Source: Candidatus Bipolaricaulota bacterium (GTDB lineage Bacteria; Bipolaricaulota; Bipolaricaulia; Bipolaricaulales; Bipolaricaulaceae). Taken from it: DNA of 43,107 nt. Position 1 is the stretch's first letter. Every line of letters starts with the position of its first letter. The stretch spans positions 1 through 43,107 of the forward strand of contig JACIWJ010000009.1 of NCBI GenBank assembly GCA_014361015.1, given 5' to 3'. Positions 4,051 to 18,367 of the stretch are shown piece by piece. The position numbers and the translations under genes are program-made. Below the pieces are notes generated by a model that saw nothing but the letters and a program-made list of their open reading frames with translations, was not told the origin of the DNA and did no database searches.

Positions 4051-4863
4051 CTACGGGAGCAAGAACAGATCCTTCGGGTCGGTGAGCACGATCTCGGCAA
4101 CCCCCTGGTACAGCTGAACCTCGCCCTGGGCACGGACCACGGTGCGCGCGATCTGCGTCCAGAAGCGTGGGCCAAACGCAGCCTCGAACTTTCCGACGTG
4201 GCGGGCGGGGATGAACAGGGTGAACCGGCCCGGGTCGGGGTACGGACGCCCGAGGTTGATGAACACGTCACCCCCGGGCCCGGTGCCGACGCTCTCCACC
4301 GGCCCCTCCACGCACAGATCGTCCCCGATCCGGTTCCGGGCCTCGGTCCACGGAACGGCCGGGGAACAGGCGGCGGTCGCGCCGGGCAGGGGGACCGCCG
4401 CAGCATGGCCGAACTGGGCAGCGTACCGATCGGCGCCGATCTCGGTCCGTAGGGAGAACAGGTCGGTGGAGAGGAGGATGAGGTTCACCATCAGCCGGCC
4501 ATCAGGGTCGAGGTAGACGTAGGCGACCAGGGAACCGCTTGCGTCGCGCTCGGGCGCGTCAAACTCCAAGTACACGGACTTCCCCGCCACGAGCGTCGCG
4601 TTGAGGGCGGTCGCCGCAGCGGCGAGGTCGCCGCCGCTCGGGGCGGCCAGGCCGAGGTACCGCACGCGAACCGTCTGTCCTACCGACAACCCCGCCGGGG
4701 CTGGGCTTGGCAACTGGTCGATCCTCACCTCAACCGTCGTCCCGTCCACCACCTGGCCGACCGTGGCCACGATCGCCGGCGGCGGAAGCGGGGGAAGGCC
4801 CAACCCGACCACCGGGACCAGACACAGGACCACAGCCCCAACCAACGGACCCAGCTTCTCCAC
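4051..4863 (-). CDS. Exported SNase-fold protein, catalytically degenerate
   Basis: Starts at GTG 4863, chosen because GAGGTGAT lies about 6 nt upstream, giving 270 aa. It has a hydrophobic signal or anchor segment (residues ~5-23) and a proline-rich linker. A staphylococcal-nuclease-like OB fold follows (about 30-150), then a second beta-rich domain ending TDPKDLFLLP. The nuclease core is recognisable: VVDGTTVEV, then VRVRYLGLAAPS, then ERDASGSLVAYVY. The catalytic positions are lost. The usual LGIDTPE is LGLAAPS, so the Asp and Glu are gone, DGDT is DGTT, and the GR of the third motif is GS. The intact paralogue at 10493 has the same two-domain layout. It probably binds nucleic acid or another ligand rather than cutting it. 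Divergently transcribed from the 5023 gene. Confidence 0.7.
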   Translation of the reverse strand: MEKLGPLVGAVVLCLVPVVGLGLPPLPPPAIVATVGQVVDGTTVEVRIDQLPSPAPAGLSVGQTVRVRYLGLAAPSGGDLAAAATALNATLVAGKSVYLEFDAPERDASGSLVAYVYLDPDGRLMVNLILLSTDLFSLRTEIGADRYAAQFGHAAAVPLPGATAACSPAVPWTEARNRIGDDLCVEGPVESVGTGPGGDVFINLGRPYPDPGRFTLFIPARHVGKFEAAFGPRFWTQIARTVVRAQGEVQLYQGVAEIVLTDPKDLFLLP

Positions 4864-5022
4864 TCGGATCACCTCTGAGCGCAACGATACGGGAAGCGTG
4901 ATCGCCCCGCCACACCGGGGGATGTCGCCACGACGGCGGCCGTGTCCCCCAAGGGGTAATCCCGCCCGCACAGCTCTCCCAAGCCGCTGGACGCCCGAAG
5001 CTCGCGGGGGAAAGATCGTCCC

Positions 5023-6447
5023 ATGAAGGGGTGGGTGTGGGTCCTCCTCGTGCCGGCCGCGATCGTCGCCTCTCTCTACGCCCACGACTTCTTCTTTGGA
5101 CTCCACCAGCCCTACGGAACGGGCAGGCCGAGCCCCCGATGGCCCGAGCTCGGCACCTCATGGCCGATGCATCCGGTGGACAACCCGGGGGACTGGCTCC
5201 CCAACGGCCTCGACGTGGCCGACGTGAACGGCGATGGGTTCCCCGATTTCGTCGTCAACTACGAGTGGACGGGCCGGATTCGCGTCGTGTTTCATCCGGG
5301 AGCGGACCTGTCACGTGACCGGCACTGGCCGGCGGCGGACGCCGGCACGTTCCCCAACGCCGAGAACGCGGCCTTCGGTGACTTCGACGGCGATGGGATT
5401 GTGGACATCGTCGTCGTCCAGGGGATCGAGCACCACCGGGATCCCGCGGCGGTGCGCATCCTGTGGGGAGAACGCGTCCCGGACCCCGCGGCCCCACCCT
5501 GGGGTTACACGTGGGCCGACGGGGGCCCCCTTCCCGAGAGTGTGGGGGTCGGGCACTATCTGTACGTCAAGGTTGCAGATCTTGACGGATCCGGGTTCCC
5601 GGACATCGTCGTCGGCGGCCGGGCCGCGCGCCTCGCTGGGGCGAGACGGACCCCCGATGCGCTGGAGAGCCTTGTCTGGACCGGGATCCGCTGGTTCCGA
5701 AACCCGCTCTCTTCCGGCGGAGATCCCCGCGACCCCGCCCAGTGGCAGATGCACGCGATCGACCCGGCGATCCCCAGTGGACACGGGTTCGTCCTCGCCG
5801 ACCTCGATGGCGACGGTTGGCTCGACCTTGCGGTCAACAACGCGGATTGGGACACGCTCGACGGCGAGAAGGCAATCCTCCTGTACCGCAATCCAGGTCC
5901 TGATGGGATCGAGGAGCCGTGGCCAGTGATCGAGCTGTACCGGAGCCCGGAGTTCTACGGTAAGGAGCAGGTCGCGGTGGCTGACCTCGACGGGGACGGA
6001 CGACCGGACATCGTGGCCCAGTCCGCGGACCTGGTCCACCTGTTCTGGAACCGGGGAGAGCGAGGTTCCCCTGTGTTCGAGCACGAAACGATCGACAAAC
6101 ACCCCGCGCTCCGCTGGCGATCCCGGCCGATTGCGGTCGCTGACGTCAACGGCGACGGCCGCCCGGACATCATCGGCGCCGCCATCCACCGGAACGGGAT
6201 CCTTCCCCGGGAGGTCGCGGCGGTGTGGTGGCTCGAACAGACATCGGACGGCTGGATACCCCACGTGATCAAGTGGGGATCGGGGTTCCTCGGCCTGGGT
6301 ACGTTCAACGGCGAGAAGTGGGACGACCTGGTACTGCTCGACGTGAACGGGGACGGCCGCCTGGACGTCGTGGCCAACGTGGAGGAGTTCAACCGGCTGC
6401 GGTCGATCCTCGCCGTGGTGTGGTTCGAGAGCCCGCTTGCGCCGTGA
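5023..6447 (+). CDS. Membrane-anchored FG-GAP/VCBS repeat protein
   Basis: 474 aa. A short N-terminal hydrophobic helix (about residues 3-20) acts as signal or anchor. Seven calcium-binding Asp loops follow, of the FG-GAP/VCBS type: DVNGDGFPDFVV, DFDGDGIVDIVV, DLDGSGFPDIVV, DLDGDGWLDLAV, DLDGDGRPDIVA, DVNGDGRPDIIG and DVNGDGRLDVVA. Seven such loops imply a complete seven-bladed integrin-alpha-like beta-propeller outside the membrane. These propellers often bind ligands or sit in surface proteins, but no enzyme domain is visible here. It is a single-gene unit: divergent from the degenerate SNase gene, convergent with tdk (24 bp between stops). A G-run (GGGGGAAAG) about 9 nt before the ATG may serve as ribosome site. 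Confidence 0.85.
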   Translation: MKGWVWVLLVPAAIVASLYAHDFFFGLHQPYGTGRPSPRWPELGTSWPMHPVDNPGDWLPNGLDVADVNGDGFPDFVVNYEWTGRIRVVFHPGADLSRDRHWPAADAGTFPNAENAAFGDFDGDGIVDIVVVQGIEHHRDPAAVRILWGERVPDPAAPPWGYTWADGGPLPESVGVGHYLYVKVADLDGSGFPDIVVGGRAARLAGARRTPDALESLVWTGIRWFRNPLSSGGDPRDPAQWQMHAIDPAIPSGHGFVLADLDGDGWLDLAVNNADWDTLDGEKAILLYRNPGPDGIEEPWPVIELYRSPEFYGKEQVAVADLDGDGRPDIVAQSADLVHLFWNRGERGSPVFEHETIDKHPALRWRSRPIAVADVNGDGRPDIIGAAIHRNGILPREVAAVWWLEQTSDGWIPHVIKWGSGFLGLGTFNGEKWDDLVLLDVNGDGRLDVVANVEEFNRLRSILAVVWFESPLAP

Positions 6448-6471: not shown

Positions 6472-7044
6472 CTAGGCCGGTGGTGCGAAGTGCGTCCGGC
6501 AGCGGGGCTCGTAGGTCTTCAGGCCGCCGATGAGGACCTCCGGCCCCCCGGTGACCGGTCGGCCGTCCACCAGCCGTTGGGACCGGGTGGCGGGCTCCCC
6601 GCACACCGTGCACACAGCAGCGAGCTTCACCACCTCGTCGGCGAGGGCAAGGAGCTGGGGCATCGGCCCGAACGGCTCCCCGCGGAAGTTGAGGTCCAGG
6701 CCAGCCACGATCACCCTCTTCCCAAGGGCGACGATCCGCTCGCACAGGGCCGGGAACCCCGGACCGAAGAAGTGGGCCTCGTCGAACGCGAACACATCGG
6801 CGGCCCCGGGACCGTTGGTCCACGCCGAGAAACGCTCCCAGGAGATATCCGTTGGCAGACGCTGACAGGGCAGGGACCGCCCGTAGTGGGTGACCACCTC
6901 CTCCACGGCGTAGCGGGTGTCGAGTTCGGGCTTGAACAGGACGACCTCCTTACGAGCGATCCGGGCCCGCTCCACCCGCCGCAGGAGCTCCTCCGTCTTC
7001 CCCGAGAACATGCACCCCGTGACTGCTTCCAGGCGCCCTGACAT
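6472..7044 (-). CDS. tdk: Thymidine kinase (type II)
   Basis: A 190-aa cytoplasmic thymidine kinase that phosphorylates thymidine (and deoxyuridine) with ATP for nucleotide salvage. The P-loop is GCMFSGKT (K16), the catalytic acid is E89 in FDEAHFF, and the lasso and thymidine-binding part is near GGLKTYEP. The structural zinc site is C145, C148, C182 and H185 (CTVC and RCRTH). The length is normal for bacterial type II enzymes. It is divergent from the 7128 transporter gene. No Shine-Dalgarno precedes the ATG, and a good -10 box ends 9 nt upstream, so the mRNA is probably leaderless. Salvage would fit the secreted nuclease and phosphatase encoded downstream of the divergent promoter, but that link is inference. 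Confidence 0.97.
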   Translation of the reverse strand: MSGRLEAVTGCMFSGKTEELLRRVERARIARKEVVLFKPELDTRYAVEEVVTHYGRSLPCQRLPTDISWERFSAWTNGPGAADVFAFDEAHFFGPGFPALCERIVALGKRVIVAGLDLNFRGEPFGPMPQLLALADEVVKLAAVCTVCGEPATRSQRLVDGRPVTGGPEVLIGGLKTYEPRCRTHFAPPA

Positions 7045-7053
7045 GACGGGGGG

Positions 7054-7083
7054 ATCCTAGCCCACAGCACCGTCGGGCGCCAA
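7054..7083 (-). promoter_or_regulatory. Candidate tdk promoter
   Basis: On the minus strand TTGGCG (7083-7078), an 18-bp spacer, then TAGGAT (7059-7054). The same -10 hexamer occurs before rpsI. The predicted transcript begins 2-3 nt before the tdk ATG, so it would be essentially leaderless. Confidence 0.5.
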
Positions 7084-7085
7084 GG

Positions 7086-7114
7086 TTGCTCGTGGCGGAG
7101 GCGAGAGGTAGAGT
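7086..7114 (+). promoter_or_regulatory. Candidate promoter of the ABC transporter block
   Basis: TTGCTC (7086-7091), 17 bp, TAGAGT (7109-7114). The -35 box is two bases away from the -35 box of the tdk promoter on the other strand, so the two promoters stand back to back. Transcription would start about 7 nt before the ATG at 7128. The TAGAGT -10 also occurs before hppA. Confidence 0.4.
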
Positions 7115-7127
7115 AAACCTGGAGAGC

Positions 7128-7982
7128 ATGTCAGGGCACCGGGTGAGAGCGGACGCCTATCTCCTCCGACGGGGTATGGGGCTCGTCGCGGTCTACGGGC
7201 TCCTGCTGTTGACCGTCGTGGTCATGGCGATGCCCCTGTTTTGGATGATCACCACCTCCCTCAAGGACATCTACCAGGCCCTGCGTATCCCGCCCCAGTG
7301 GATCCCCAATCCCCCGCAGTGGGGCAACTATCCGGCGGCGTGGAATGCCGCCCCGTTCGGGATCTACTTCTGGAACTCGTTCTTCCTCGCCATCACCACC
7401 ACGGTGGGAGACGTGATCACGAGCATCCCCGCTGCCTACGTCCTGGCGAAGATGACGTTTCTCGGCCGGGGGCTCCTCCTGAGCCTTCTCCTTGGGACGC
7501 TGATGATCCCTGGCCAGATGTTGCTCGTGCCGAGCTTCATCCTCATCAACCGCCTGGGCTGGTACAACACGTACTGGGCACTCATCATCCCCTGGACGGC
7601 CGGGGTGTTCGGGATCTTCCTCCTGCGCCAGTTCTTCAAGACCATCCCCGATGAACTGTGGGACTCGGCCCGGATCGACGGGTGCTCTCGGCTGCGGTAC
7701 ATGTTCCAGATCGCTGTGCCGCTGGTCCGACCGGGGATCGCCACCGTGGCCCTGTTCAAGTTCGTAGGGTCGTGGAACGCGTTCCTGTGGGTGATCATCA
7801 TGACCGATAAGGTGGGGTTGCGAACGGTCCCCGTGGGGCTAAGGTTCTTCATGATGGACATCGGTACGGACTACCCGCGGCTCATGGCGGCAGCGACGAT
7901 GGCGATCGTCCCCGTTTTGATCCTGTTCGCCTTTGCACAGCGACAGTTCATTCAGGGGATCGCGCGCACGGGGATCAAGTGA
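7128..7982 (+). CDS. ABC sugar-type permease (MalG/UgpE family)
   Basis: 284 aa from ATG 7128, with GGAG just upstream. Upstream in-frame TTG and GTG codons would lengthen it but overlap the promoter. It is an inner-membrane permease with six hydrophobic segments, beginning with a long helix around residues 15-40. The cytoplasmic EAA loop, which docks the ATPase, is DELWDSARIDGCSRLRYMF (D179). PGIATVALFKFVGSWNAFLW is the typical C-terminal helix of carbohydrate importers. It pairs with the permease at 9313 and the binding protein at 8064. The order permease-binding protein-permease, with the MalG-like gene first, is unusual. No MalK/MsmX-like ATPase is in the window, so a shared ATPase encoded elsewhere is needed. 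Confidence 0.93.
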   Translation: MSGHRVRADAYLLRRGMGLVAVYGLLLLTVVVMAMPLFWMITTSLKDIYQALRIPPQWIPNPPQWGNYPAAWNAAPFGIYFWNSFFLAITTTVGDVITSIPAAYVLAKMTFLGRGLLLSLLLGTLMIPGQMLLVPSFILINRLGWYNTYWALIIPWTAGVFGIFLLRQFFKTIPDELWDSARIDGCSRLRYMFQIAVPLVRPGIATVALFKFVGSWNAFLWVIIMTDKVGLRTVPVGLRFFMMDIGTDYPRLMAAATMAIVPVLILFAFAQRQFIQGIARTGIK

Positions 7983-8063
7983 GGGGGGTGAGAACGGAGC
8001 GCAACGGGTGGTTTCTGGCAGCAAACACAAGAGGTGCTTGGACAACCTACGGAGGTGGGTGAG

Positions 8064-9257
8064 ATGCGACGAATCGCGATATTAGCATTGCTGTGTGTGC
8101 TGGGCGTGGCGGCATCTGGGCAAGTGAAGATCAGCTTCTGGCACGCGATGAGTGGAGCCCTGGGCACCACGCTGACCGAGCTCGTCCAGAAGTTCCACGA
8201 CGAGAACCCGACCATCGAGGTCGACCTCATCTACCAGGGGGGGTACGGCGCCCTCCAGCAGAAGCTGATCGCCGCGGTGGCGGCGGGAGAACCCCCAACT
8301 CTTGCCCAGCAGTATGAGAACTGGACCACGCTGTGGCTGGACGCGCTGGTGGATCTGGACCTGTTCCTCCCCCAGGAAACCCTCGATGACCTCCTCCCCC
8401 AGTTCGACCAGCTGTTCGAGGGGCGGAGGGTCACGGTTCCGTTCAACAAGTCGATCCTCGTCCTCTACTACCGGCCGGACCTTGTTCCAAACCCGCCGCG
8501 GACGTGGTGGGAGTTCGCGTCCATCGTCACCGCGATCGGGAAGGATGAGGCAAAGGGCGTCTACGGAACAGCGTTCCGTCCGTCGAACCCCGAGATCTTC
8601 TTGACCCTCCTCAACCAGGCCGGTGGAGCGATCCTGTCCGATGATTGGTCGGCTGTGACGATCAACGATGCAGCTGGCCTCGAGGCGGCGGAGTTCGCAG
8701 CGCGGCTGGCTCAGTACGCGCTGGTCGATAGCGCCTACGTGTCAGACGCCATCGCGAAGGGATTGACGATCGGGGCGTTCATCGACACGTCCGCGGGCTA
8801 CACCTACAACATGAACGCCGCCAAGACGGCGGGGGTCCCCCTCGCGGTGGCTCCTCTTCCCTGTCACTGCGGGAACTGCGCATCCATGATCCAGGGGACG
8901 AATCTTGCGATCTTCTCGCCCAATCAGACCCGGGCGCAGATCGAGGCCGCGGCCAAGTTGATCGCGTTCCTCCTCCGCGAGGACAACACCACCTACTGGG
9001 CGCAGAAGACGGGCTACCTCCCGGTGACGCGAGGGGCGATCTACGGTGACGCTTGGCAAACCTACATCGCTACCAAGCCGGAGCAGAAGGCGATGACGGA
9101 GCAGTTGATCGCCGGTGGATTTGGCCAGCTCCTTCACCCGCGGTACATGGACATGCGCAGCCTGCTGATCACCTACTGGGAGCTCCTCCTGAAGGGAGAG
9201 GACACTCCAAAGGCGATCATGGACGCGCTCGCGGCCGAGATCGAGGCCATCAAGTAG
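8064..9257 (+). CDS. Extracellular solute-binding protein (UgpB-like)
   Basis: 397 aa; ATG 8064 with GGAGGTG 6 nt upstream. A signal peptide covers residues 1 to about 19 (MRRIAILALLCVLGVAASG). The mature start ISFWHAMSGALGTTLTELVQ, then YQGGYGALQQKLIAAVAAGEPPTL, resembles family-1 binding proteins and UgpB (glycerol-3-phosphate) in particular. The substrate is not provable from sequence. An unusual CHCGNC motif (three cysteines) lies about two-thirds along, just before the SMIQGTNLAIF segment that family members share. It would capture ligand outside the membrane and hand it to the permeases at 7128 and 9313. A perfect hairpin follows the stop, as is common where the binding protein is made in excess. 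Confidence 0.92.
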   Translation: MRRIAILALLCVLGVAASGQVKISFWHAMSGALGTTLTELVQKFHDENPTIEVDLIYQGGYGALQQKLIAAVAAGEPPTLAQQYENWTTLWLDALVDLDLFLPQETLDDLLPQFDQLFEGRRVTVPFNKSILVLYYRPDLVPNPPRTWWEFASIVTAIGKDEAKGVYGTAFRPSNPEIFLTLLNQAGGAILSDDWSAVTINDAAGLEAAEFAARLAQYALVDSAYVSDAIAKGLTIGAFIDTSAGYTYNMNAAKTAGVPLAVAPLPCHCGNCASMIQGTNLAIFSPNQTRAQIEAAAKLIAFLLREDNTTYWAQKTGYLPVTRGAIYGDAWQTYIATKPEQKAMTEQLIAGGFGQLLHPRYMDMRSLLITYWELLLKGEDTPKAIMDALAAEIEAIK

Positions 9258-9270
9258 GAGGTCGGAGGGG

Positions 9271-9296
9271 GCGGGGGAGGGGGAACCCTCCCCCGC
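9271..9296 (+). terminator. Hairpin after binding-protein gene (attenuator or mRNA stabiliser)
   Basis: Perfect 11-bp stem: GCGGGGGAGGG (9271-9281), loop GGAA, CCCTCCCCCGC (9286-9296). No T-run follows, so it is not a classical terminator. It lies between binding-protein and permease genes of one operon, where such stems usually raise binding-protein mRNA relative to downstream genes. Confidence 0.6.
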
Positions 9297-9312
9297 GCCA
9301 CTCCCGAGCCGG

Positions 9313-10479
9313 ATGAGGCTGCCTGCGCTGCGCAGAGGCCGCCGGTTCTGGTGGGACACGGTGGAGGCGTACGTCTACCTCCTTCCCACCCTCGCCGTGT
9401 TGGGGCTGTTCACGTTCTACCCGTTCGTCAACGCCTTCATCTACAGCGTGTACGACATTCGGACCCGGACCGTGCCCGGCCCCGTGTTGCACGTCGCGGC
9501 GGATAGCACCGCGTGGGTGACGGACCTCGCCAGAGGACGGATCCCCGAGGGGCTCTCTGACGCCCTACGCGTGCGTGGAGTGGACCCACACGAGCTGTGG
9601 GTGCGCCTGCGTCAGGCCGACCGCTGGGTGGTCAAGGACGAGGCGTCGGGGCAGGAGTACATCATCGTCCGCGAGGGGGAGGAACTCCGGGTGCACCAGG
9701 CCACCACCGGCTGGGCGATGGAATCGGTGGGCTGGGCCAACTTCACCCGGGCGTTCCAGGACCCAGACTTCAGAAAGGCCCTCGTGAACACGTCTGTGTA
9801 CGTGGGGGTCAGCGTGCCGACAACCCTGGTCCTCGCACTTCTCCTGGCCACCCTCCTCCACCGGGGGGTGCGGGGGAAGGCGTTCTTCCGGCTGACCAGC
9901 TTCCTACCCTACATCACCCCTGTGGTGGCGATCACGATGGTCTGGGCCTGGATCTACGATCGGAACTTCGGGCTCCTGAACTACTTCCTCCGCTCGGTGG
10001 GGAGCCTGTTCGGTGTCGAGGTGAGCCTGATCAACTGGCTCAACGACCCGCGGTACGTGATGCCGGCCCTCATCGTGATGAACGTGTGGCGATTCGTGGG
10101 ATATCAAGCCCTGATCCTGCTCGCGGGAATGCAGGGGATCGACCGGGAGTACTACGAGGCGGCACGGGTGGACGGTGCGGGCGCGTTTGGGGTCTGGCGG
10201 AAGATCACGGTGCCCCTGCTTACCCCCCAGATGTTCTTCCTCCTCATCATCTCGCTCATCGGCTCGTTCAAGATCTTCGAGGAAGTGCTGATCCTTCTCC
10301 AGGGTCCGGGCCCGCAGAAATCCGGATTGACCGTGGTGTACTACGTGTTCACCAAAGCGTTCGACTCCGGGCACTACGGCCTGGCCTCCGCTGCCTCGGT
10401 GATCCTGTTCGCGATCATCTTCGCCCTGTCCCTGTTCCAACTGACCGTGACGCAACGGCGAGTTCACTACGAGCGGTAG
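9313..10479 (+). CDS. ABC sugar-type permease (MalF/UgpA family) with periplasmic insertion
   Basis: 388 aa. The first membrane helix is at about residues 18-42. A hydrophilic insert of about 90 residues (roughly 48-145) follows, before the usual WANFTRAF segment and the five remaining helices. The EAA loop is EYYEAARVDGAGAFGVWRK (E282). Simple UgpA-type permeases lack such a large extracytoplasmic loop, and E. coli MalF has an unrelated-looking P2 loop in the same place, which contacts the binding protein. The insert here (VRGVDPHELWVRLRQADRW, IIVREGEELRV) is not one I recognise. It partners with the 7128 permease. The stop is 13 nt before the SNase gene start, so the genes are co-transcribed. 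Confidence 0.92.
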   Translation: MRLPALRRGRRFWWDTVEAYVYLLPTLAVLGLFTFYPFVNAFIYSVYDIRTRTVPGPVLHVAADSTAWVTDLARGRIPEGLSDALRVRGVDPHELWVRLRQADRWVVKDEASGQEYIIVREGEELRVHQATTGWAMESVGWANFTRAFQDPDFRKALVNTSVYVGVSVPTTLVLALLLATLLHRGVRGKAFFRLTSFLPYITPVVAITMVWAWIYDRNFGLLNYFLRSVGSLFGVEVSLINWLNDPRYVMPALIVMNVWRFVGYQALILLAGMQGIDREYYEAARVDGAGAFGVWRKITVPLLTPQMFFLLIISLIGSFKIFEEVLILLQGPGPQKSGLTVVYYVFTKAFDSGHYGLASAASVILFAIIFALSLFQLTVTQRRVHYER

Positions 10480-10492
10480 CGAGGAGGTGTCC

Positions 10493-11326
10493 ATGCGACG
10501 ATTGCTCCTGTGCGTGATCGTGGCGCTGGTGTCCCTGGGGGGGGTCAGCTGCGCGGCCCAGCCCCCGGAAGGGGCGATTCCCGCCCGGATCCTGCGCTGG
10601 CACGACGGGGACACAGCCCAGGTCCGGCTCACGGGAGACCCTCCAGCAGGAGTGGGGAACTACGAGGCGGTGCGCCTCCTTGGGATCGATACCCCGGAGG
10701 TGGGGGAGCCGTTCGCGGACGACGCGACGCGGTTCTTTCGCTCGCTCACGATGGGGAAGGACGTGTACGTGGAGCTCAACCCCGTCGAGCTTCGGGACAG
10801 ACACCGCCGCCTCCTCGTCCACCTGTGGGTGGAGACGGAAGAGGGATGGGTCCTGGTGAGCGAGGAGCTCGTGCGCGCTGGGCTGGCGCGGATCCTCGTG
10901 TACTACCCGGAGCACGAACCGTACTACTGCCGCCTCCTGCGCGCCCGGGCCCTCGCCCAGGTGGACAGGCTCGGGCTGTGGGGCACGTTCGCCGAGCCGC
11001 TCACGGTCGGCGAGCTCGAGGCAAGCCCGGTACGCTACGTGGCCGAGGTCATCACCGTGACGTTCCGGGTGTCCCGCGTCGGAGAGGACAAGTGGGGCCT
11101 CTCGCTGTGGGCCGACGGTAGCCGGTACGGCTTCCGCGCGATCATCGATCCGACGGCGTGCCCCGCCTTCTGGGAGGGCGCCTCCCTTCCCACGGGGGAC
11201 TGGGTGGGCGCAACGGTCGCCGTAACCGGTGAGCTCCTGTGGGACAGCTTCGGAGGAGGCCCGCGCATCGAGGTGCGGTTCCCGGACCAGTTGGCGCTGA
11301 CCGCGGAGGAGGGGGACGAGCGATGA
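10493..11326 (+). CDS. Secreted thermonuclease-like (SNase) protein
   Basis: 277 aa; ATG 10493, with GAGGAGGTG directly upstream. The hydrophobic signal ends at SLGGVSC (C20), possibly a lipoprotein with an imperfect lipobox. The SNase OB fold spans about residues 28-165 with catalytic motifs intact. These are DGDT (D40), VRLLGIDTPE (R61, D66, E69) and RDRHRRLL (R106, for the usual GR). A calcium-dependent phosphodiesterase cleaving DNA/RNA outside the cell is therefore likely. A second beta-rich domain (about 175-270) resembles that of the degenerate paralogue at 4051. It sits between the UgpB-like transporter and a secreted phosphatase, and its stop overlaps the phosphatase start (ATGA). 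This suggests a joint role in using extracellular phosphoesters or nucleic acid. Confidence 0.85.
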   Translation: MRRLLLCVIVALVSLGGVSCAAQPPEGAIPARILRWHDGDTAQVRLTGDPPAGVGNYEAVRLLGIDTPEVGEPFADDATRFFRSLTMGKDVYVELNPVELRDRHRRLLVHLWVETEEGWVLVSEELVRAGLARILVYYPEHEPYYCRLLRARALAQVDRLGLWGTFAEPLTVGELEASPVRYVAEVITVTFRVSRVGEDKWGLSLWADGSRYGFRAIIDPTACPAFWEGASLPTGDWVGATVAVTGELLWDSFGGGPRIEVRFPDQLALTAEEGDER

Positions 11327-12483
11327 GGCCTGCGATCCTGACCCTGGCGCTGCTCGTTCTGGCCACGACGGGTTGGCCCTCTCCGCTCCTGTTTGGGCCG
11401 TGGAGCGGGGCTCCAGGAGCGGAGGGGGTGACGATCTCCTGGATCTCCTCCCCCGCCAGCCCGGCACGGGTCGAGTACGGGCCACTCGCGGACTACGAAC
11501 AGACGGGTGCGCTGCCGTACGAGGAGGTCCATACCCCGTCTGCTTCCGCGAGCCGGGAGATCGCCCACGTCCGCGTGGGGGGGCTGGCCCCGGCCACGTG
11601 GTACGCCTATCGCATCGCGTTCCCTGATGGAACGACCTCCCCGAGCGGCACCTTCTGTACCGCCCCCCCTCCCGGGGAGGGGGTGGCGTTCGCCGTGATC
11701 TCGGATACCCAGTGGCAGTGGACTGGGGTGAACCGGATCCAACTCGTCGCGGATGCGTTGGCGAACGATCCGACTCCCTTTCAGTTCATCCTCCACGCGG
11801 GGGATCTGGTGGAAAGCCCAACCCCGCGGTATTGGGATCATCTGTTTGCATCGTTGTCCAGGGCGTTGCTCCGTGCTCCGTTCCTCCCCGTGCTGGGGAA
11901 CCATGAACGTAACAGCATTACCTACTATCAGTCGTTCGACCTTCCCCCAGGAGGGGGGCAGGCGGCGAAGCGGTGGTGGGCCCTCGAGTTCGGCGACGTG
12001 ATCGTGGTGGGGTTGGACACCAACGTGACCCGGCCCCAGGAGTTCCACGACCAGATCGCGTTTCTCCGCGAACGAATGGCCGGTCCGTTCGCCCATCGGT
12101 TCGTGGTCTTCCACCATCCCGTGTTCTCCTCGGACGCCACCTACGGGCCGGGGACGGAGGGCCTGCAGCTCCTGTGGCACCCCGTGTTCGTCGACCTGGG
12201 CGTGGACATCGTGTTCACAGGACACGCGCACAACTACGAACGGATCGAGCGGGACGGGGTGACGTACCTCGTGGTGGGCGGAGGAGGGGCCGTTCTGCGG
12301 CCGCTCGCCGCCGAGCGCGTCGCGGGATCCCAGGTGGGCGATGATGACCACTACTTCTACGTGCGGGTGAGGACCGACCGCGGGGGGATCCACGTGGAGG
12401 CGGTGGCCGTGGCGCGGCTCGCGGACGGCGCGGTTGTTCCGGCAACCGGCGTTCTCGATCGGTTCACCCTTCCCCGGGATTGA
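11323..12483 (+). CDS. Secreted purple-acid-phosphatase-like metallophosphoesterase
   Basis: 386 aa with a signal peptide (about residues 1-19). An N-terminal fibronectin-like domain typical of purple acid phosphatases follows (about 22-115; GVTISWISS, VRVGGLAPATWYAYRI). A calcineurin-like metallophosphoesterase domain comes next. Metal-site motifs are SDTQWQW, HAGDLVES, LGNHERN, FHHPVF and GHAHNYER, which correspond to the five conserved blocks; the first block reads DTQ rather than the more usual DxG or DxH. It should hydrolyse phosphomonoesters, such as nucleotides, outside the cytoplasm. The start overlaps the stop of the nuclease gene (ATGA), so the two are translationally coupled. Two GC-rich hairpins follow the stop. 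Confidence 0.88.
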   Translation: MRPAILTLALLVLATTGWPSPLLFGPWSGAPGAEGVTISWISSPASPARVEYGPLADYEQTGALPYEEVHTPSASASREIAHVRVGGLAPATWYAYRIAFPDGTTSPSGTFCTAPPPGEGVAFAVISDTQWQWTGVNRIQLVADALANDPTPFQFILHAGDLVESPTPRYWDHLFASLSRALLRAPFLPVLGNHERNSITYYQSFDLPPGGGQAAKRWWALEFGDVIVVGLDTNVTRPQEFHDQIAFLRERMAGPFAHRFVVFHHPVFSSDATYGPGTEGLQLLWHPVFVDLGVDIVFTGHAHNYERIERDGVTYLVVGGGGAVLRPLAAERVAGSQVGDDDHYFYVRVRTDRGGIHVEAVAVARLADGAVVPATGVLDRFTLPRD

Positions 12484-12500
12484 AGTCGGGGGGAGCGAAC

Positions 12501-12536
12501 GACGGGGGCCCCGTCCTCTCCCACCCGGTGGTGGGA
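12501..12536 (+). terminator. Two adjacent GC-rich hairpins after the phosphatase gene
   Basis: GACGGGG-G-CCCCGTC (12501-12515) is followed by TCCCACC-CGGT-GGTGGGA (12519-12536). Both are perfect inverted repeats but neither has a T-run. They lie between the phosphatase gene and the separate -10-like box of the GH57 gene and may end or reduce read-through. Confidence 0.4.
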
Positions 12537-12571
12537 AGGCACGTCTGTGGGGCGTGACTCTTTCCACAAGC

Positions 12572-12590
12572 TATACTTGGTCGAGGAGGT
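12572..12590 (+). promoter_or_regulatory. Possible -10 box and ribosome site of GH57 gene
   Basis: TATACT (12572-12577) matches a sigma-70 -10 box well, but no convincing -35 lies 16-18 bp upstream. GAGGAGGT at 12583-12590 is a strong ribosome site 5 nt before the ATG. A separate transcript for the GH57/Mal genes is plausible. Confidence 0.35.
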
Positions 12591-12595
12591 AGACG

Positions 12596-15481
12596 ATGCG
12601 TGCTTGTGTGATCGCCTTTCTTCTGGTCAGCACGGTCGCGACGCTGGTCGGGGCCAAGGCGCCGCTCAACCTGGCCATCGTGTGGCACCAACACCAGCCC
12701 CTGTACTGGAACCGTCTCACGGGTGAGTACGAGCTCCCGTGGGTCCGCGTCCACGGGGTCCAGGAGTACCTCGACTCGCCCCTCATCCTCGCCGAGGTTC
12801 CCGGGATCGTCGTGACCTACAACCTGCAGCCGAGCCTCCTCTGGCAGCTCCTCGACTACGTCGAGATCACGGACGAGGAGCGAGCCCGCGGGGGGCTGTA
12901 CGAGCTCATCGGCGCGGTGGACAACCACCTGCGGTGGACGTGGGACCTGGTTCACGCGCCGGAGGGCCTGGCCTCCGAGGTCCGGGCGGCGATGCAGGAG
13001 CAGTTCTTCTGGCTCAACCCGTACATGCTCCGTCCCGGTGGGACCTACTACGACCCCTACTACGCTCAGCTCAATACCCTCCGGGGCGTCCGTGCCCTCA
13101 CCGACCAGGAGCTCCTCGATGCCGCGGGGCTGTTCCTTCTGTGGCAGATCTCGCCGGAGCTGCACGAGGAGTTGGGTCTTCTTCCCCTGCGGGGGAAGGG
13201 GGGATGGACAGAGCAGGACATCGTCCAGGTCATTCGCGCCCAGCACGAGGTCCTGACGCGGGTCGTGGGGGCGTACCGTGCCGCGGCCGAGCTGGGGACC
13301 GAGCTCATCACGAGCCCGTTCTACCACCCGATCCTCCCCTTGCTCGCCGAGCGGGGGTGGGACGAGGACATCTTGGGTCAGCTCGATCTCGCGCAGGATC
13401 AGCATCGGGCGCTCTCCGGCACGCGGGCAGTCGGGGTATGGCCCCCCGAGCAAGCGGTCTCGGATCGGGCGGTGGAGCTCCTCGCCGAGGCGGGGTTCGC
13501 GTGGACCGTGGCCGACGAGTGGACGCTCGCGGCGGCCCTCGGCCGCACGCCGACGCGGGCCGAGCTCACCCAACCGTGGCGGTTCGGGGACATCACGCTC
13601 TTCTTCCGCGACCACAACCTGTCCGACAGGATCAGCTTTGCCTACGGGAACAAGCCCACCGCGGAGGCGGTGGCCGACCTCATGGCTGAGATCAGGAAGT
13701 ACTGGGAGGAGCTCGACCAGCCGGAGGAGCACGTGTTGGTGATCGCCCTCGACGGGGAGAACTGGATGTTCATGGCCGGCTATCCCGACAACGGGCGGGA
13801 GTTCCTGCGGGCCCTGTACGGGGAGCTCCTCCAGGCGGACTGGGTGAACACCGTGACGCCGGGAGGGTTCCTGGCCTGTCACCCCCCCGAACGGGAGTTG
13901 ACGGCGATCCCCGTTGGCTCGTGGGCAGGAGACCTCGCCACCTGGAGCGGGGAGCCGGAAGAGGACGAGGCGTGGGAGCGGCTCGCTGCGGCCCGCGTCG
14001 CGGTGTTGACCGGGGATCCCACCCCCGAGGCGCTCCGCGCGCTGTACGCGGCGGAGGGCTCGGACTGGTTCTGGTGGTATGGCGACGACCAGGACTCGGG
14101 GACGGATGACCTGTTCGACTGGCTGTTCAAAACCCACCTCGTGGCCGCCTACCGCGCCGCCGGGTACGCCGACGCGGACATCCCCCCGGTGCTGTCCCTC
14201 CGCCTTCGCCTCCCGCTGCGGGCGAACCTGGGTGAGGTGAAGCCCGCCCTCGACGGACGGATCACGGACCCCGACGAGTGGGCGGAGGCGGCCGTCGTCC
14301 TCGGCTCAGGCGCGATCGAACGGGTGGCCGTGGCCTACGGAGAGGGCATCCTGTTCGTCCGCGCCGACCTCGACGGTCCGGCCCGCGACCTGATCGGAAC
14401 GGGGACGAAGCTCGTCCTGTACGCGACCGGCAGGCCGGGGGAGCGAGCGAACACGACCACCCGCCACAGCGGGGATTCCCTCGGGTTTGCGCTCGTGTCG
14501 GCGGTGGAGCTCGACCTGGCCAAGGTCAAAGCCGACGGTTCGGGCTACGTGTTCCGCTACAGCGCGGACGGCCGGGGCGGCTGGCGGTTGACGTCGCCGA
14601 TCCGCACGCTCACCTTGCGCGCCGCTCACGTCGACGCGGTGATCGAGTTCGGGATCCCGTTCGAGGAGCTCGGGGTGGAGCCCGGGGGCAGCCTGGTGTT
14701 GGCCGTGGCCCTCGAACGCGAGGACGAGCTCCTCGGGCACGCCCCGGAGCGACCCCTGTGGGCGCGGATCCCGACCCTCATCCAAGGGGTGGAGGTGTGG
14801 GCGATGGACGACCCCCAGGGGGACGACCACGGGCCGGGAACGTACGTCTACCCGCTGAACAGCGTGTTCGCCGAGATCGGCCTGTTCGACCTCCTCCGCT
14901 ACGCGGTGTACGACGCGGACGACCGGTGGCAGCTCGCGTTCGACTTCCCGACCCTCCCCAACCCGTGGAACGGCCCGCAGGGGTTCTCCCACCCCATCCT
15001 CTACCTGTACTTCGACGTCGGCCCAGGGGGGAGGACGGACGCCCACGACGAGGGCAAGGCGGCCCAGATCGCGTTCAGCCCCGACCACCCGTGGGATTAC
15101 TTCCTGAAGGTCGCGGGGTGGCCGGCGTACGGCCGCCACCTGTGGACGGCAACCGGCGAGGGTCCATTCCTCGTCGAGGTCGCCAGCGACCCCAAGCGGG
15201 GGCGGATCATCGTGACGATCCCCAAGGCGCTCCTTCCCGAGGTGCGGGGTCGACACTGCGTGCTCGTGGGGTCGCAGGACGGGTACGGGCCGAACCACCT
15301 CCGTCCGATCGGGGCCACCGCGGGCGAGTGGACGGGCGGCGGATGCCCGGATCCACTGTGGGCCCCGCAAATCTACGACTACCTGGCACCGGCCGGACTG
15401 TCCCAAGAGGAGGTCCTGTCCGGGTATGATCGGGGGAAGCAGCGCTACGCGGTGCTCCTGCCCGTAGAAGTTCAGTTCTAG
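12596..15481 (+). CDS. Secreted GH57 amylopullulanase-like alpha-glucan hydrolase
   Basis: 961 aa with a signal peptide (about residues 1-20). The GH57 catalytic domain starts at once, with motif 1 WHQHQPLY (H31-P35). Next come ITSPFYHPILP (motif 2), GVWPPEQAVS with the predicted nucleophile E285 (motif 3) and VIALDGENWM with the acid D386 (motif 4). HDxN-like and YGDDQDSG segments follow at about 500. The C-terminal third (about 720-960) has the WAMDDPQGDDHGPGTY and DFPTLPNPWNGPQGFSHPI patterns of the glucodextranase/DOMON-like C domain found in pullulanases. It should cut alpha-1,4 and alpha-1,6 links in starch or glycogen outside the cell. It is followed by MalE-MalF-MalG-like uptake genes, which supports maltodextrin use. 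Confidence 0.93.
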   Translation: MRACVIAFLLVSTVATLVGAKAPLNLAIVWHQHQPLYWNRLTGEYELPWVRVHGVQEYLDSPLILAEVPGIVVTYNLQPSLLWQLLDYVEITDEERARGGLYELIGAVDNHLRWTWDLVHAPEGLASEVRAAMQEQFFWLNPYMLRPGGTYYDPYYAQLNTLRGVRALTDQELLDAAGLFLLWQISPELHEELGLLPLRGKGGWTEQDIVQVIRAQHEVLTRVVGAYRAAAELGTELITSPFYHPILPLLAERGWDEDILGQLDLAQDQHRALSGTRAVGVWPPEQAVSDRAVELLAEAGFAWTVADEWTLAAALGRTPTRAELTQPWRFGDITLFFRDHNLSDRISFAYGNKPTAEAVADLMAEIRKYWEELDQPEEHVLVIALDGENWMFMAGYPDNGREFLRALYGELLQADWVNTVTPGGFLACHPPERELTAIPVGSWAGDLATWSGEPEEDEAWERLAAARVAVLTGDPTPEALRALYAAEGSDWFWWYGDDQDSGTDDLFDWLFKTHLVAAYRAAGYADADIPPVLSLRLRLPLRANLGEVKPALDGRITDPDEWAEAAVVLGSGAIERVAVAYGEGILFVRADLDGPARDLIGTGTKLVLYATGRPGERANTTTRHSGDSLGFALVSAVELDLAKVKADGSGYVFRYSADGRGGWRLTSPIRTLTLRAAHVDAVIEFGIPFEELGVEPGGSLVLAVALEREDELLGHAPERPLWARIPTLIQGVEVWAMDDPQGDDHGPGTYVYPLNSVFAEIGLFDLLRYAVYDADDRWQLAFDFPTLPNPWNGPQGFSHPILYLYFDVGPGGRTDAHDEGKAAQIAFSPDHPWDYFLKVAGWPAYGRHLWTATGEGPFLVEVASDPKRGRIIVTIPKALLPEVRGRHCVLVGSQDGYGPNHLRPIGATAGEWTGGGCPDPLWAPQIYDYLAPAGLSQEEVLSGYDRGKQRYAVLLPVEVQF

Positions 15482-15567
15482 GGGGTGAGAGCGACGGAGA
15501 CGGAACTTGGTGGAGGCAATGCCAAGGACGACGTAGCGAAACCATGGACGAGCACAAGGAGGCTAGG

Positions 15568-16770
15568 ATGAAGAAGCTGTTGCTGGTAGTGCTGGGATTG
15601 ACGGTCGGGCTGGCGGCGTTCGCCCAGGCCCCGAAGCTCGTGATCTGGGCCGATGACACGCGAACCCCGGTGCTGCGGGACCTGGCTGTCGAGTTCAAGG
15701 CGATCACTGGCGTCGAGATCGAGGTCGTGGAGATCGCGTTCGATCAGATCCGGGGCCAGTTCATCACTGCTGCTCCGACCGGGCAGGGACCTGACATCAT
15801 CGTTGGGGCCCACGACTGGGTGGGGGAACTGGCGGCGAACGGCCTGCTGGAGCCGGTCGACTTCGGGCCGAAGCTCGCCGAGTTCAGCGTTTCGTCGGTG
15901 CAGGCGTTCTCCTATGGCGGGAAGAACTACGGCGTCCCCCAGGGGACGGAGAACATCGCGATCATCTACAACAAGGCGCTCGTGCCGGAGATGCCGAAGA
16001 CGTGGGACGAGCTCCTCGTGTTCGCGCGCCAGATCACGGATCCGACGAAGCCGATGTACGCGCTCGTCTTCCAGAACGGTCCGGACCCCTATCACTGGTT
16101 CCCCATGCTCTCGGCTTGCGGTGGGTACGTCTTTGGCCCGGACGCGAGCGGTGCCCTCAACCCGTGTGATGTGGGCCTCGCCAACGAAGGGGCGCTCCGT
16201 GGAGCCCAGCTCTTTGCGGACATGATCGAGGAAGGCCTGCTCCCGGCGGGCGTGTCGTGGGACACGATGCGGGCGCTGTTCTTCGGCGGGAACGCAGCGA
16301 TGGTCATCTCCGGCCCATGGCTCGTTGCCGATACCAAGGCCGCCGGGATCGACTACGGCATCGCGATGATCCCGTCGATTCAGTGCGCCGATGGTTCGTA
16401 TGGCGTCCCGAAGCCGTTCATTGGGGTCCAGGGGTTCATGGTGAGCGCGTTCAGCCAGAACAAACTCCTCGCGTTTGATTTCCTCCTCAACTACATCGCG
16501 ACCACGGACACGATGCTCGCCCTGTACAACCGGAACCCGCGGCCGCCGGCCCACCTCCCGACGTTCGAGCTTGTGAAGAGCGATCCCGACATCGCTGCGT
16601 TCGGTCTCCAGGGGCAGAACGGCATCCCGATGCCCAACATCCCGGAGATGGCGTCGGTGTGGGGCGCGTGGGCCGATGCCCAAAGCCTGATCGCCAACGG
16701 CCAGGCCACGCCGGAACAGGCACTGCAGGAGGCGGTTCAGAAGATCAAGGCCGCTCTGAAGTGCCCGTAG
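15568..16770 (+). CDS. Maltodextrin-type solute-binding protein (MalE-like)
   Basis: 400 aa; ATG 15568 with AAGGAGG 5 nt upstream, preferred over the longer in-frame start at 15544. A signal peptide occupies residues 1-19 (MKKLLLVVLGLTVGLAAFA). The mature protein has family hallmarks of MalE/maltodextrin-binding proteins: LVIWADDT, AVEFKAITGVEIEVVE, TGQGPDIIVGAHDWVGELAANGLL, YGVPQGTENIAIIYN and FFGGNAAMVISGPWLV. Neighbours are the secreted GH57 enzyme upstream and MalF/MalG permeases downstream, so maltooligosaccharide capture is likely. Several Cys pairs (SACGGY, NPCDVG, IQCADG) could form disulfides. A 13-bp hairpin follows the gene. Confidence 0.94.
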   Translation: MKKLLLVVLGLTVGLAAFAQAPKLVIWADDTRTPVLRDLAVEFKAITGVEIEVVEIAFDQIRGQFITAAPTGQGPDIIVGAHDWVGELAANGLLEPVDFGPKLAEFSVSSVQAFSYGGKNYGVPQGTENIAIIYNKALVPEMPKTWDELLVFARQITDPTKPMYALVFQNGPDPYHWFPMLSACGGYVFGPDASGALNPCDVGLANEGALRGAQLFADMIEEGLLPAGVSWDTMRALFFGGNAAMVISGPWLVADTKAAGIDYGIAMIPSIQCADGSYGVPKPFIGVQGFMVSAFSQNKLLAFDFLLNYIATTDTMLALYNRNPRPPAHLPTFELVKSDPDIAAFGLQGQNGIPMPNIPEMASVWGAWADAQSLIANGQATPEQALQEAVQKIKAALKCP

Positions 16771-16779
16771 GGTAGACCC

Positions 16780-16808
16780 GAGGGGGCAGCCCTTAGGGCT
16801 GCCCCCTC
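16780..16808 (+). terminator. Hairpin after MalE-like gene (attenuator or mRNA stabiliser)
   Basis: Perfect 13-bp stem: GAGGGGGCAGCCC (16780-16792), loop TTA, GGGCTGCCCCCTC (16796-16808), then TCCCCTCT without a clear T-run. It lies directly before the MalF start. Its position matches the hairpin at 9271 after the other binding-protein gene, suggesting shared control of binding-protein to permease ratio. Confidence 0.65.
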
Positions 16809-16816
16809 TCCCCTCT

Positions 16817-18367
16817 GTGGCTGGGCGGGAGGTCGTCGCACAGGGAGCCAAACTCGGGCTCCTCGCCCTATTGGATGCAGCGGCCGTCTGGGCTGCTGTC
16901 TCGCTTCTTCTGCGCGGGGACCATCTTCTGCTCGCCGTCCTTGCCGCCGGAGCGCTCCTCCTCAACTTCGTCGTCCTCTCCCGCCGTGCCTACCCGCTGC
17001 GGTTCCTCCTCCCGGGGCTCGTGTTCCTGTTCGCGATGGTGGTGTACCCAATCGGGTACACGATCAACGTGTCCCTCACCAACCTCCAGACGGGGAACCT
17101 CCTCACCAAGAGCCAGGTCATCGCCCAGCTCGAGGGCCGCTACTACCTTCCGCCAGACCACGCGACGTTCTCCTATTGGGCATTTCGGAACCCTCAAGGT
17201 GAGCTCCGGGTGATCCTCCTCGCCCAGGACGGGCGGAGCTACCTCTCGGAGGGGAGCCAGCTCCTCCCGGTAGACCTCACCGATCCCCGCTTCGTCCGGG
17301 GCACAGACGGGACGGTCGTCGCGTTCGACGACTTCACACGTCTCTCGTTGGCCCAGATCTACCAGTCGCTGCCTGCGCTCGAGCGGCTGGACCTCATGTT
17401 GGAGGGGGTCCACGTTCGCCTGGCCACGGTCCGCGAGTTCGGGACGTACCTCCGAAAGTACGAGTACCTGCGGGACGTTGACGCGATACGTGACCTCGAG
17501 ACGGGGATCGTGTACACGGCCCGCGAGGGCTACTTCACCTCGCCCGACGGCGTGCGGATCGAGCCAGGGTTCCAGATCTACGTCGGGTTCAGGAACTACC
17601 TCGATGTCCTCACCAACCCGGGCATCCGCGCCGACTTCACCCGCGTGTTCGGCTGGACGGTGGCGTGGTCGTTCCTCACGGTCTTCTTCAGCTTCTGGCT
17701 CGGGCTGGTGCTCGCGTACCTCCTCAACGACCCCTACGTCCGGGGAAGGTTCTTCTATCGGTCGCTCCTCATCATCCCGTACGCGATGCCGGCGTTCATC
17801 TCCGCGCTCGTGTGGGCCGGGCTGTTCAACACGGACCTCGGGGTGATCAACCGGATCATCGGCGAGCTGTTTGGGACGAAGGTGCGCTGGCTGCAGGACC
17901 CGATGTGGGCCCGCGCGGCCCTCATCTTCATCAACGTCTGGCTGACGTACCCGTACATGATGATCGTCTCGTTGGGAGCCCTGCAGAGCATCCCCAAGGA
18001 GATGTACGAGGCGGCGCGGGTGGATGGGGCCACGGGCTGGCAGAGGTTCTGGACGATCACGATGCCGCTTCTGTGGGTGAGCGTCGCCCCGCTTCTCATC
18101 GGATCGTTCGCGTTCACGTTCAACAACTTCACGATCATCTGGCTCGTCACGGCCGGGCGGCCGGCCGTGCTCGGCGCGGCGACCCCGGCCGGGGCGACGG
18201 ACATCCTCATCTCCTGGACGTACCGCTTGGCGTTCGAGGGCGACCGCGGGAACCAGCTCGGCCTTGCCTCGGCCGTTTCGATCATCATCTTCGTCATCAT
18301 CGCCACGATCAGCGCGGTGAACTTCCGGTTCACCCGCGCGCTCGAGGACGTGAGCCGCGGTGTATAG
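16817..18367 (+). CDS. Maltodextrin ABC permease MalF-like
   Basis: 516 aa from GTG 16817, which lies 9 nt after the hairpin with no visible ribosome site; a later start is possible. There are two N-terminal helices (about residues 12-52), then a helix at about 60-82. A large extracytoplasmic P2-like domain (about 85-270) follows, then five more helices. The EAA loop is EMYEAARVDGATGWQRFW (E398). The long P2 domain is characteristic of MalF, where it contacts the maltose-binding protein. The C-terminal segment ATDILISWTYRLAF is also typical. It overlaps the malG-like start by 8 nt. The cognate ATPase is not in the window. Confidence 0.93.
   Translation: MAGREVVAQGAKLGLLALLDAAAVWAAVSLLLRGDHLLLAVLAAGALLLNFVVLSRRAYPLRFLLPGLVFLFAMVVYPIGYTINVSLTNLQTGNLLTKSQVIAQLEGRYYLPPDHATFSYWAFRNPQGELRVILLAQDGRSYLSEGSQLLPVDLTDPRFVRGTDGTVVAFDDFTRLSLAQIYQSLPALERLDLMLEGVHVRLATVREFGTYLRKYEYLRDVDAIRDLETGIVYTAREGYFTSPDGVRIEPGFQIYVGFRNYLDVLTNPGIRADFTRVFGWTVAWSFLTVFFSFWLGLVLAYLLNDPYVRGRFFYRSLLIIPYAMPAFISALVWAGLFNTDLGVINRIIGELFGTKVRWLQDPMWARAALIFINVWLTYPYMMIVSLGALQSIPKEMYEAARVDGATGWQRFWTITMPLLWVSVAPLLIGSFAFTFNNFTIIWLVTAGRPAVLGAATPAGATDILISWTYRLAFEGDRGNQLGLASAVSIIIFVIIATISAVNFRFTRALEDVSRGV

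Follow-up and report, generated by a model that had tools for sequence, protein, structure and literature searches.

A Bipolaricaulota gene cluster that may feed on extracellular nucleic acid by importing dinucleotides

Introduction

In mycoplasmas, genes for a staphylococcal-type nuclease (SNase) are co-transcribed with those of a binding protein and an ATP-binding cassette (ABC) importer, and the cargo proposed in the accessible parts of the reports is nucleic-acid precursors (PMC3585158, PMC12115388). Here we describe a unit of related make-up in a 43,107-nucleotide stretch of DNA (hereafter the window) on contig C89 of a 1.5 Mb, 94% complete metagenome-assembled genome of Candidatus Bipolaricaulota. 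As an earlier reading of the DNA (the original prediction) had proposed, five genes on the + strand encode an ABC permease, a periplasmic binding protein, a second permease, a secreted SNase and a secreted phosphatase in this order, and a thymidine kinase gene diverges from them. We consider the unit to be probably an operon through which the cell feeds on extracellular nucleic acid and imports dinucleotides (rough probability, 0.6).

The importer belongs to a group in which glycerol-phosphate, sugar and nucleotide binders resemble one another, and the residues of the ligand site are informative. According to the accessible part of a published comparison, two Tyr and two Ser residues that hold phosphate are common to UgpB and to the glycerophosphocholine (GPC)- and U3G (uridylyl-3'-5'-phospho-guanosine, UpG)-binding proteins and are not common to glucose binders, and a pair of Trp residues grips the glycerol moiety in UgpB (PMC12718374). 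In the open-licence literature, outside which most subscription papers lie, we found no account of the operon or of a fusion of SNase with a phosphatase of the purple acid phosphatase type, and the main text of the Bipolaricaulota paper PMC9992828 has no word starting with "nuclease" or "transporter".

Results

Linkage of nuclease, phosphatase and importer genes across relatives

The UgpE/MalG-type permease (7128..7982, +; PF00528), the binding protein (8064..9257, +; SBP_bac_8/SBP_bac_1), the MalF/UgpA-type permease (9313..10479, +; PF00528), the SNase (10487..11326, +) and the metallophosphatase (11323..12483, +) are separated by gaps of 81, 55 and 7 bp and then a 4-bp overlap between SNase and phosphatase. 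The phrase "overlaps or tiny gaps" of the original prediction suits the last two junctions and is slightly generous for the first two.

A search of the window's own genome and 99 relatives (100 genomes in all) gave matches to the binding protein in 59 (E ≤ 1e-30), to the SNase in 61 (E ≤ 1e-5) and to the phosphatase in 68 (E ≤ 1e-10). Linkage was counted in the 58 genomes of the class, besides the window's own, that have a binding-protein match, by mapping the window proteins onto the surrounding DNA. The permease-binding protein-permease order was kept in 50/58 genomes, and in 45/58 an SNase and/or phosphatase gene with the orientation of the binding-protein gene was no more than 6 kb away from it (both in 26, SNase only in 10, phosphatase only in 9). 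The linkage reaches down to about 40% binding-protein identity. A gene placed at random is roughly estimated to lie in such a 12-kb interval in ~1–2% of 1–4 Mb genomes; the linkage is far above chance. Among the 13 unlinked genomes, the contig ends within ~1.1 kb downstream in five (G018, G024, G064, G059, G031). The phosphatase gene is upstream rather than downstream in some genomes of the f2 family. Conservation of the gene order had been proposed as a check of the original prediction, which named unlinked nuclease and phosphatase genes in relatives as the outcome that would speak against it; the counts above and the fusions described below show the opposite.

The binding protein was present in 35 of the 40 genomes of the family. 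Thymidine kinase is directly divergent from the unit in 21/58 genomes and within 7.5 kb in 32/58. A plasmid collection searched with the binding protein gave one weak match only. Two records labelled as other taxa, L158 (Thermotoga sp.) and L191 (Neomarinimicrobiota), also carry a Bipolaricaulota-type operon (binding-protein identity, 86% and 40%); they look the same as the class members G002 and G089, and their labels look wrong.

Fusion of SNase with phosphatase and a mosaic operon

In eight genomes (G002, G004, G008, G009, G010, G014, G016 and G021), the SNase and phosphatase matches are contained in one open frame, which has, as read, a single N-terminal signal-like segment (the frames of G002 and G014 run to the contig end). 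In the other genomes the two genes are separate, often abutting or overlapping by a few bases. The fusion is the strongest sign that the two enzymes share a substrate and a compartment.

The window, with separate genes, was compared with G004 (locus L096), with a fused one. DNA identity was mostly 91–97% in the permease genes and 96–98% in much of the phosphatase catalytic domain, whereas the SNase gene together with the PAP_N domain of the phosphatase (10487-11661) was ~70% identical or unalignable. Differences at fourfold-degenerate sites were 14–16% for the permeases and 13% for the phosphatase catalytic domain, against 67–69% for SNase and PAP_N. The simplest reading of these sequences is that the SNase/PAP_N cassette was replaced by recombination, turning a fused gene into two or the reverse. 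The binding protein, with 31% fourfold-site differences, exceeds the permeases on either side and may have been exchanged too relative to G004.

Family and ligand site of the binding protein

The closest solved proteins to the 8064-9257 protein are PDB entries 7c0f-7c1b (single-sequence E 1.7e-33), which, from their titles, we take to be the Thermus dinucleotide-binding protein of Chandravanshi, Samanta and Kanaujia (FEBS J 288:4614, 2021). The titles describe "endogenously bound" UpG and name eight mutated positions. When a profile of 16 binding proteins was run against the PDB, the 7c0f group scored 228.9 bits, followed by E. coli UgpB (154.3); Mycobacterium tuberculosis UgpB scored ~111 bits and maltodextrin binding protein 104.6. 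The predicted structure of the window protein has a predicted local distance difference test (pLDDT) value of 95.7, and its top matches were the dinucleotide-binding-protein entries with UpG (Foldseek E 2.8e-29), with VIA Z 44.1 to these entries (368 aligned, 2.7 Å) versus 42.2 to M. tuberculosis UgpB. As Z separates these entries only narrowly from other CUT1 binders, the argument rests on residues.

The window residues at the eight mutated positions are Y61, Y84, N86, S130, Y225, T242, Y248 and Q277. Seven are identical to the crystallised protein, the exception being Y84 in place of F79; E. coli UgpB has two identical residues at these positions, whereas none is shared by E. coli MalE or by the MalE-like protein of the window. 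Q277 was found in 40/40 members of the clade and T242 in 30/40, compared with 4 and 0 of 38 relatives outside it (the groups were drawn by kinship and record titles after removal of the incomplete loci L188 and L192 from 80). All four phosphate-holding residues are present as Y61, S130, S243 and Y318, and in the alignment with UgpB the two-Trp clamp is absent from the window protein. UgpB is the only NCBIfam match of this protein, at 79.9 bits versus the equivalog cut-off of 411; the MalE match falls instead on 15544-16770.

Strict identity with UgpB was rejected because the equivalog score is far under the cut-off and the Trp clamp is absent. The likeness to UgpB claimed by the original prediction thus holds for the Tyr/Ser set, but not for the family score or the clamp, and the nearest protein is that of 7c0f. 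A maltodextrin importer was rejected as well, on the ligand-site residues, the family scores and the conservation of gene neighbours. The best reading of the sequence and the predicted fold is that the protein binds dinucleotides. A phosphoester derived from nucleic acid, as had been guessed, is likely, and a dinucleotide is a better guess than a nucleoside or glycerol-3-phosphate.

The secreted enzymes

The SNase (PF00565 E 5e-17) consists of a signal-like N-terminus, an SNase catalytic domain (residues 32-166, 10580..10984, +, from the alignment to staphylococcal nuclease) and a C-terminal oligonucleotide/oligosaccharide-binding (OB)-fold domain (residues 165-275, 10979..11311, +, from the AlphaFold2 model). 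R63, E71 and R108, which we take to be the equivalents of the catalytic Arg/Glu/Arg of staphylococcal nuclease, and D42, presumably its Ca-binding Asp, are kept in 36–37 of 37 relatives. The protein combines the PF00565 domain with the catalytic Arg/Glu/Arg and the Ca-binding Asp of the staphylococcal nuclease family and is a predicted nuclease. The OB domain (pLDDT 89.9) resembles those of aspartyl/asparaginyl-tRNA synthetase, Ten1 and MCM (Z 8–10), a likeness that alone does not prove nucleic-acid binding. The window also has a degenerate SNase-like protein without a Pfam match (~4051-4866, −), which, judging by its sequence, seems to have lost the active-site aspartate, glutamate and second arginine; its kin adjoin the cluster in several genomes.

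The phosphatase has a PAP_N domain (Pur_ac_phosph_N; 31.2 bits vs a cut-off of 30; residues 33-113, 11419..11661, +, inside the block divergent from G004) and a calcineurin-like catalytic domain (Metallophos E 6e-14; 53.3 bits vs 21.5), and it retains the metal-binding Asp, Asn and His. The tyrosine position of its GDxxY motif is occupied by Glu164; among 35 readable relatives (unaligned cells excluded), 33 have Glu and 2 have Thr. In purple acid phosphatases this Tyr is an Fe(III) ligand responsible for the purple colour. Because Glu replaces it, the protein is a PAP_N-type metallophosphatase and not, strictly speaking, a purple enzyme; the earlier label of purple acid phosphatase agrees with the domain make-up but not with this residue.

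Salvage genes and partners in relatives

The unit itself lacks an ATPase gene. One for a UgpC-like ATPase (54% to E. coli UgpC) is located at G000:C49:4740-5831, and such an ATPase was found in all 12 genomes of the genus that were searched. Salvage families were frequent in the same genomes: PNP_UDP_1 in 12/12, PYNP_C in 10/12 and DeoC in 11/12.

In some relatives other genes accompany the importer. A PLD plus OB-fold protein precedes the permease in G082, and a uracil phosphoribosyltransferase gene is near the importer in G053, with a frame in G050 that looks similar on reading (unscanned). These substitute partners also point to nucleic acid. In other phyla (L211, L216, L217, L221), the related permease-permease-binding protein set is flanked by a protein of metallo-beta-lactamase fold and by secreted proteins whose domains are OB-like, lamin-tail or helix-hairpin-helix, several of the OB matches being under the Pfam cut-offs; these loci could possibly be a second kind of nucleic-acid uptake cluster. 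In the Bacillota relatives (L193, L197, L203, L208, L213), no nuclease was recognised among the listed frames, and the 3' neighbour resembles a HAD phosphatase (Pfam-scanned in L193 only). The thymidine kinase gene of several relatives adjoins an ABC set with an NMT1/THI5-like binding protein (L108:12005-14487, Pfam-scanned; L131:7355-10076). Such NMT1-type sets and ribose-type sets near thymidine kinase suggest further salvage transporters.

Flanking genes and transcription signals

The thymidine kinase gene of the window (6472..7044, −; PF00265 E 2.7e-43; above the cut-off of the NCBIfam thymidine kinase equivalog) is separated from the unit by an 83-bp divergent region (7045..7127), which, as read from the sequence, presumably holds the promoters. 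An FG-GAP repeat protein (5023-6447) adjoins the thymidine kinase. The second permease has an additional loop of ~85 amino acids after helix 1 that is absent from most other genera, as relatives beyond the nearest genera align to its residues 1-50 and 139-388. On the 3' side, a GH57 gene with a glucodextranase C domain (12596..15481, +; Pfam), which we judged to be outside the unit, begins 112 bp after the phosphatase end at 12483 and is followed by a MalE/MalF/MalG set (15544-19217), so that a second CUT1 importer is close 3' of the first. In 6/58 relatives, all of the window's own genus, GH57 is no farther than 8 kb from the binding protein, and in two of the six it is divergent.

A scan of 6900-15700 found no sigma-70-type promoter and no more terminators than in shuffled sequences, and the RNA of the gap before GH57 folds without excess stability (z −0.41). 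No match to an E. coli-type Pho box pattern was found in the window with up to three mismatches, which is weak evidence about Pho-type control in this phylum.

Discussion

From the gene order, its conservation, the fusion, the conserved residues and the predicted fold, we infer the activities of the enzymes, the ligand, the co-transcription and the physiology of the unit as follows. The secreted SNase-OB protein would bind DNA or RNA and cut it into mononucleotides and short oligonucleotides that carry a 3'-phosphate, the kind of product that staphylococcal-type nucleases leave. The metallophosphatase would then strip the terminal phosphates, setting phosphate free and leaving dinucleoside monophosphates or nucleosides, and the binding protein would capture dinucleotides via the internal phosphodiester and the flanking bases. 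The two permeases would import them with power from a UgpC/MsmX-type ATPase encoded elsewhere, and salvage in the cell would fall to a DHH-type nanoRNase, nucleoside phosphorylases, DeoC and the divergent thymidine kinase. Because removal of the 3'-phosphate yields the UpG-like form of the ligand in the crystal titles, nuclease, phosphatase and importer would be successive steps. A narrower version is tentative: Bipolaricaulota would have an uptake pathway dedicated to dinucleotides, in which the nuclease-OB-phosphatase, split or fused, produces dinucleoside monophosphates, the CUT1-type binding protein selects them via the internal phosphodiester, and whole dinucleotides, not nucleosides, are the imported currency. 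Joint scavenging of nucleic acid had already been proposed in the original prediction; the conserved unit and the often adjoining thymidine kinase support this, and the guess at the ligand needs correction.

Several observations weigh against dinucleotide import. The UpG of the crystals was carried over from expression, so that the physiological ligand of the crystallised protein is itself uncertain, and the identity of the window protein to it is only ~31% (112/360). Its fold barely separates from sugar binders (Z 44.1 vs 42.4 for a cyclic maltosyl-maltose binder). A DHHA1 frame of the size of NrnA (326-329 amino acids) was found in only 5/12 genus genomes, including the window's, and most DHHA1 matches were frames of alanyl-tRNA-synthetase size. 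In 8/58 genomes with longer context, no SNase or phosphatase was found nearby (G094, G053, G044, G050, G075, G061, G054, G033), although G033 (26% identity) is unlikely to be an orthologue; it was left among the misses. Finally, the closeness of GH57 makes co-transcription with a glycan enzyme possible.

The same scavenging unit might instead import nucleosides or mononucleotides. In the accessible part of the report, an ABC operon of Mycoplasma bovis with Ugp/glycerol annotation imports nucleosides and is needed for the use of extracellular DNA (PMC12838404); moreover, the genome has thymidine kinase and nucleoside phosphorylases, and the phosphatase could free nucleosides. We nevertheless regard this cargo as unlikely, because the Tyr/Ser set that coordinates phosphate, needless for a nucleoside, is kept and the binding protein matches the UpG-bound protein at the mutated positions. 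Somewhat less likely still is a true Ugp importer of glycerophosphodiesters or glycerol-3-phosphate, with the nuclease and phosphatase scavenging phosphate. The first permease has UgpE as its best NCBIfam match (139 bits, under the cut-off of 297), the binding protein matches only UgpB in NCBIfam and has its phosphate-binding residues, and the GPC and UpG binders are near UgpB in the accessible part of the published comparison (PMC12718374); against it stand the low equivalog score, the missing Trp pair and the lack of a UgpQ-type gene in a unit where SNase is conserved instead.

It seems improbable that importer and secreted enzymes are mere neighbours and that the enzymes serve, for example, the turnover of biofilm or surface DNA. 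The eight genomes without the enzymes and the upstream phosphatase of some f2-family genomes would fit such an arrangement, but the 45/58 linkage at binding-protein identities down to ~40% and the nuclease-phosphatase fusions inside the operon argue otherwise. An alpha-glucan importer partnered with the adjacent GH57 is very improbable: the GH57 start is only 112 bp downstream and the fold is like that of sugar binders, yet this neighbour is confined to a few relatives of one genus, divergent in two, it precedes its own MalE/F/G set (with MalF above its cut-off), and none of the eight ligand-site positions is in common with MalE.

If the unit imports dinucleotides as proposed, nucleic acid would be one food of Bipolaricaulota, a phylum in which few nutrient systems have been characterised, and the dinucleotide-binding-protein family, whose known ligand came with the crystallised protein, would gain a genomic context. 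The proposal gives a testable cargo for a transporter that annotation would otherwise assign to sugar or glycerol-phosphate import. The SNase-OB-phosphatase fusion found in nature is also a candidate for a one-polypeptide enzyme that converts nucleic acid to phosphate and unphosphorylated short fragments.

Comparison with known systems

The Thermus dinucleotide-binding protein (PDB 7c0f-7c1b) is the best match of the binding protein in both sequence and fold and agrees at 7/8 mutated positions, at ~31% identity. For the unit as a whole, the SNase-ABC operons of mycoplasmas (MAG_5030-5070 in M. agalactiae) likewise combine a secreted SNase with a binding protein and two permeases (PMC3585158, PMC12115388), and here too the SNase adjoins the binding protein and permeases and does so across relatives. 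The mycoplasma unit has its own ATPase (its binding protein is P80), and no phosphatase is mentioned in the accessible parts of these papers (PMC3585158, PMC12115388); the window unit, in contrast, lacks an ATPase but includes an OB domain and a phosphatase. The MBOVPG45_0748 transporter of M. bovis is alike in its glycerol/Ugp-type annotation, nucleic-acid-derived cargo and role with extracellular DNA, but its cargo is nucleosides and the accessible part of the report mentions no nuclease in that operon (PMC12838404). The ugpB-A-E-C-Q operon of E. coli also has a CUT1-type importer, a phosphoester-binding protein and a linked phosphodiesterase; it differs in that its phosphodiesterase, UgpQ, is no SNase, that UgpB carries the Trp pair and that ugpC is part of the operon. 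In the DNA-degradation clusters of Ca. Izemoplasmataceae, extracellular nuclease genes are similarly beside genes of digestion, phosphate-removal and transport enzymes, but the transport named in the accessible part is that of phosphate and nucleobases and not an importer of the window type (PMC8289736). Given the mycoplasma SNase-ABC and M. bovis nucleoside operons, the principle is already known, so far mainly from mycoplasmas. What is new here, in a phylum that is uncultured, is the dinucleotide-type binding protein together with the OB domain, the phosphatase and the fusion of nuclease with phosphatase.

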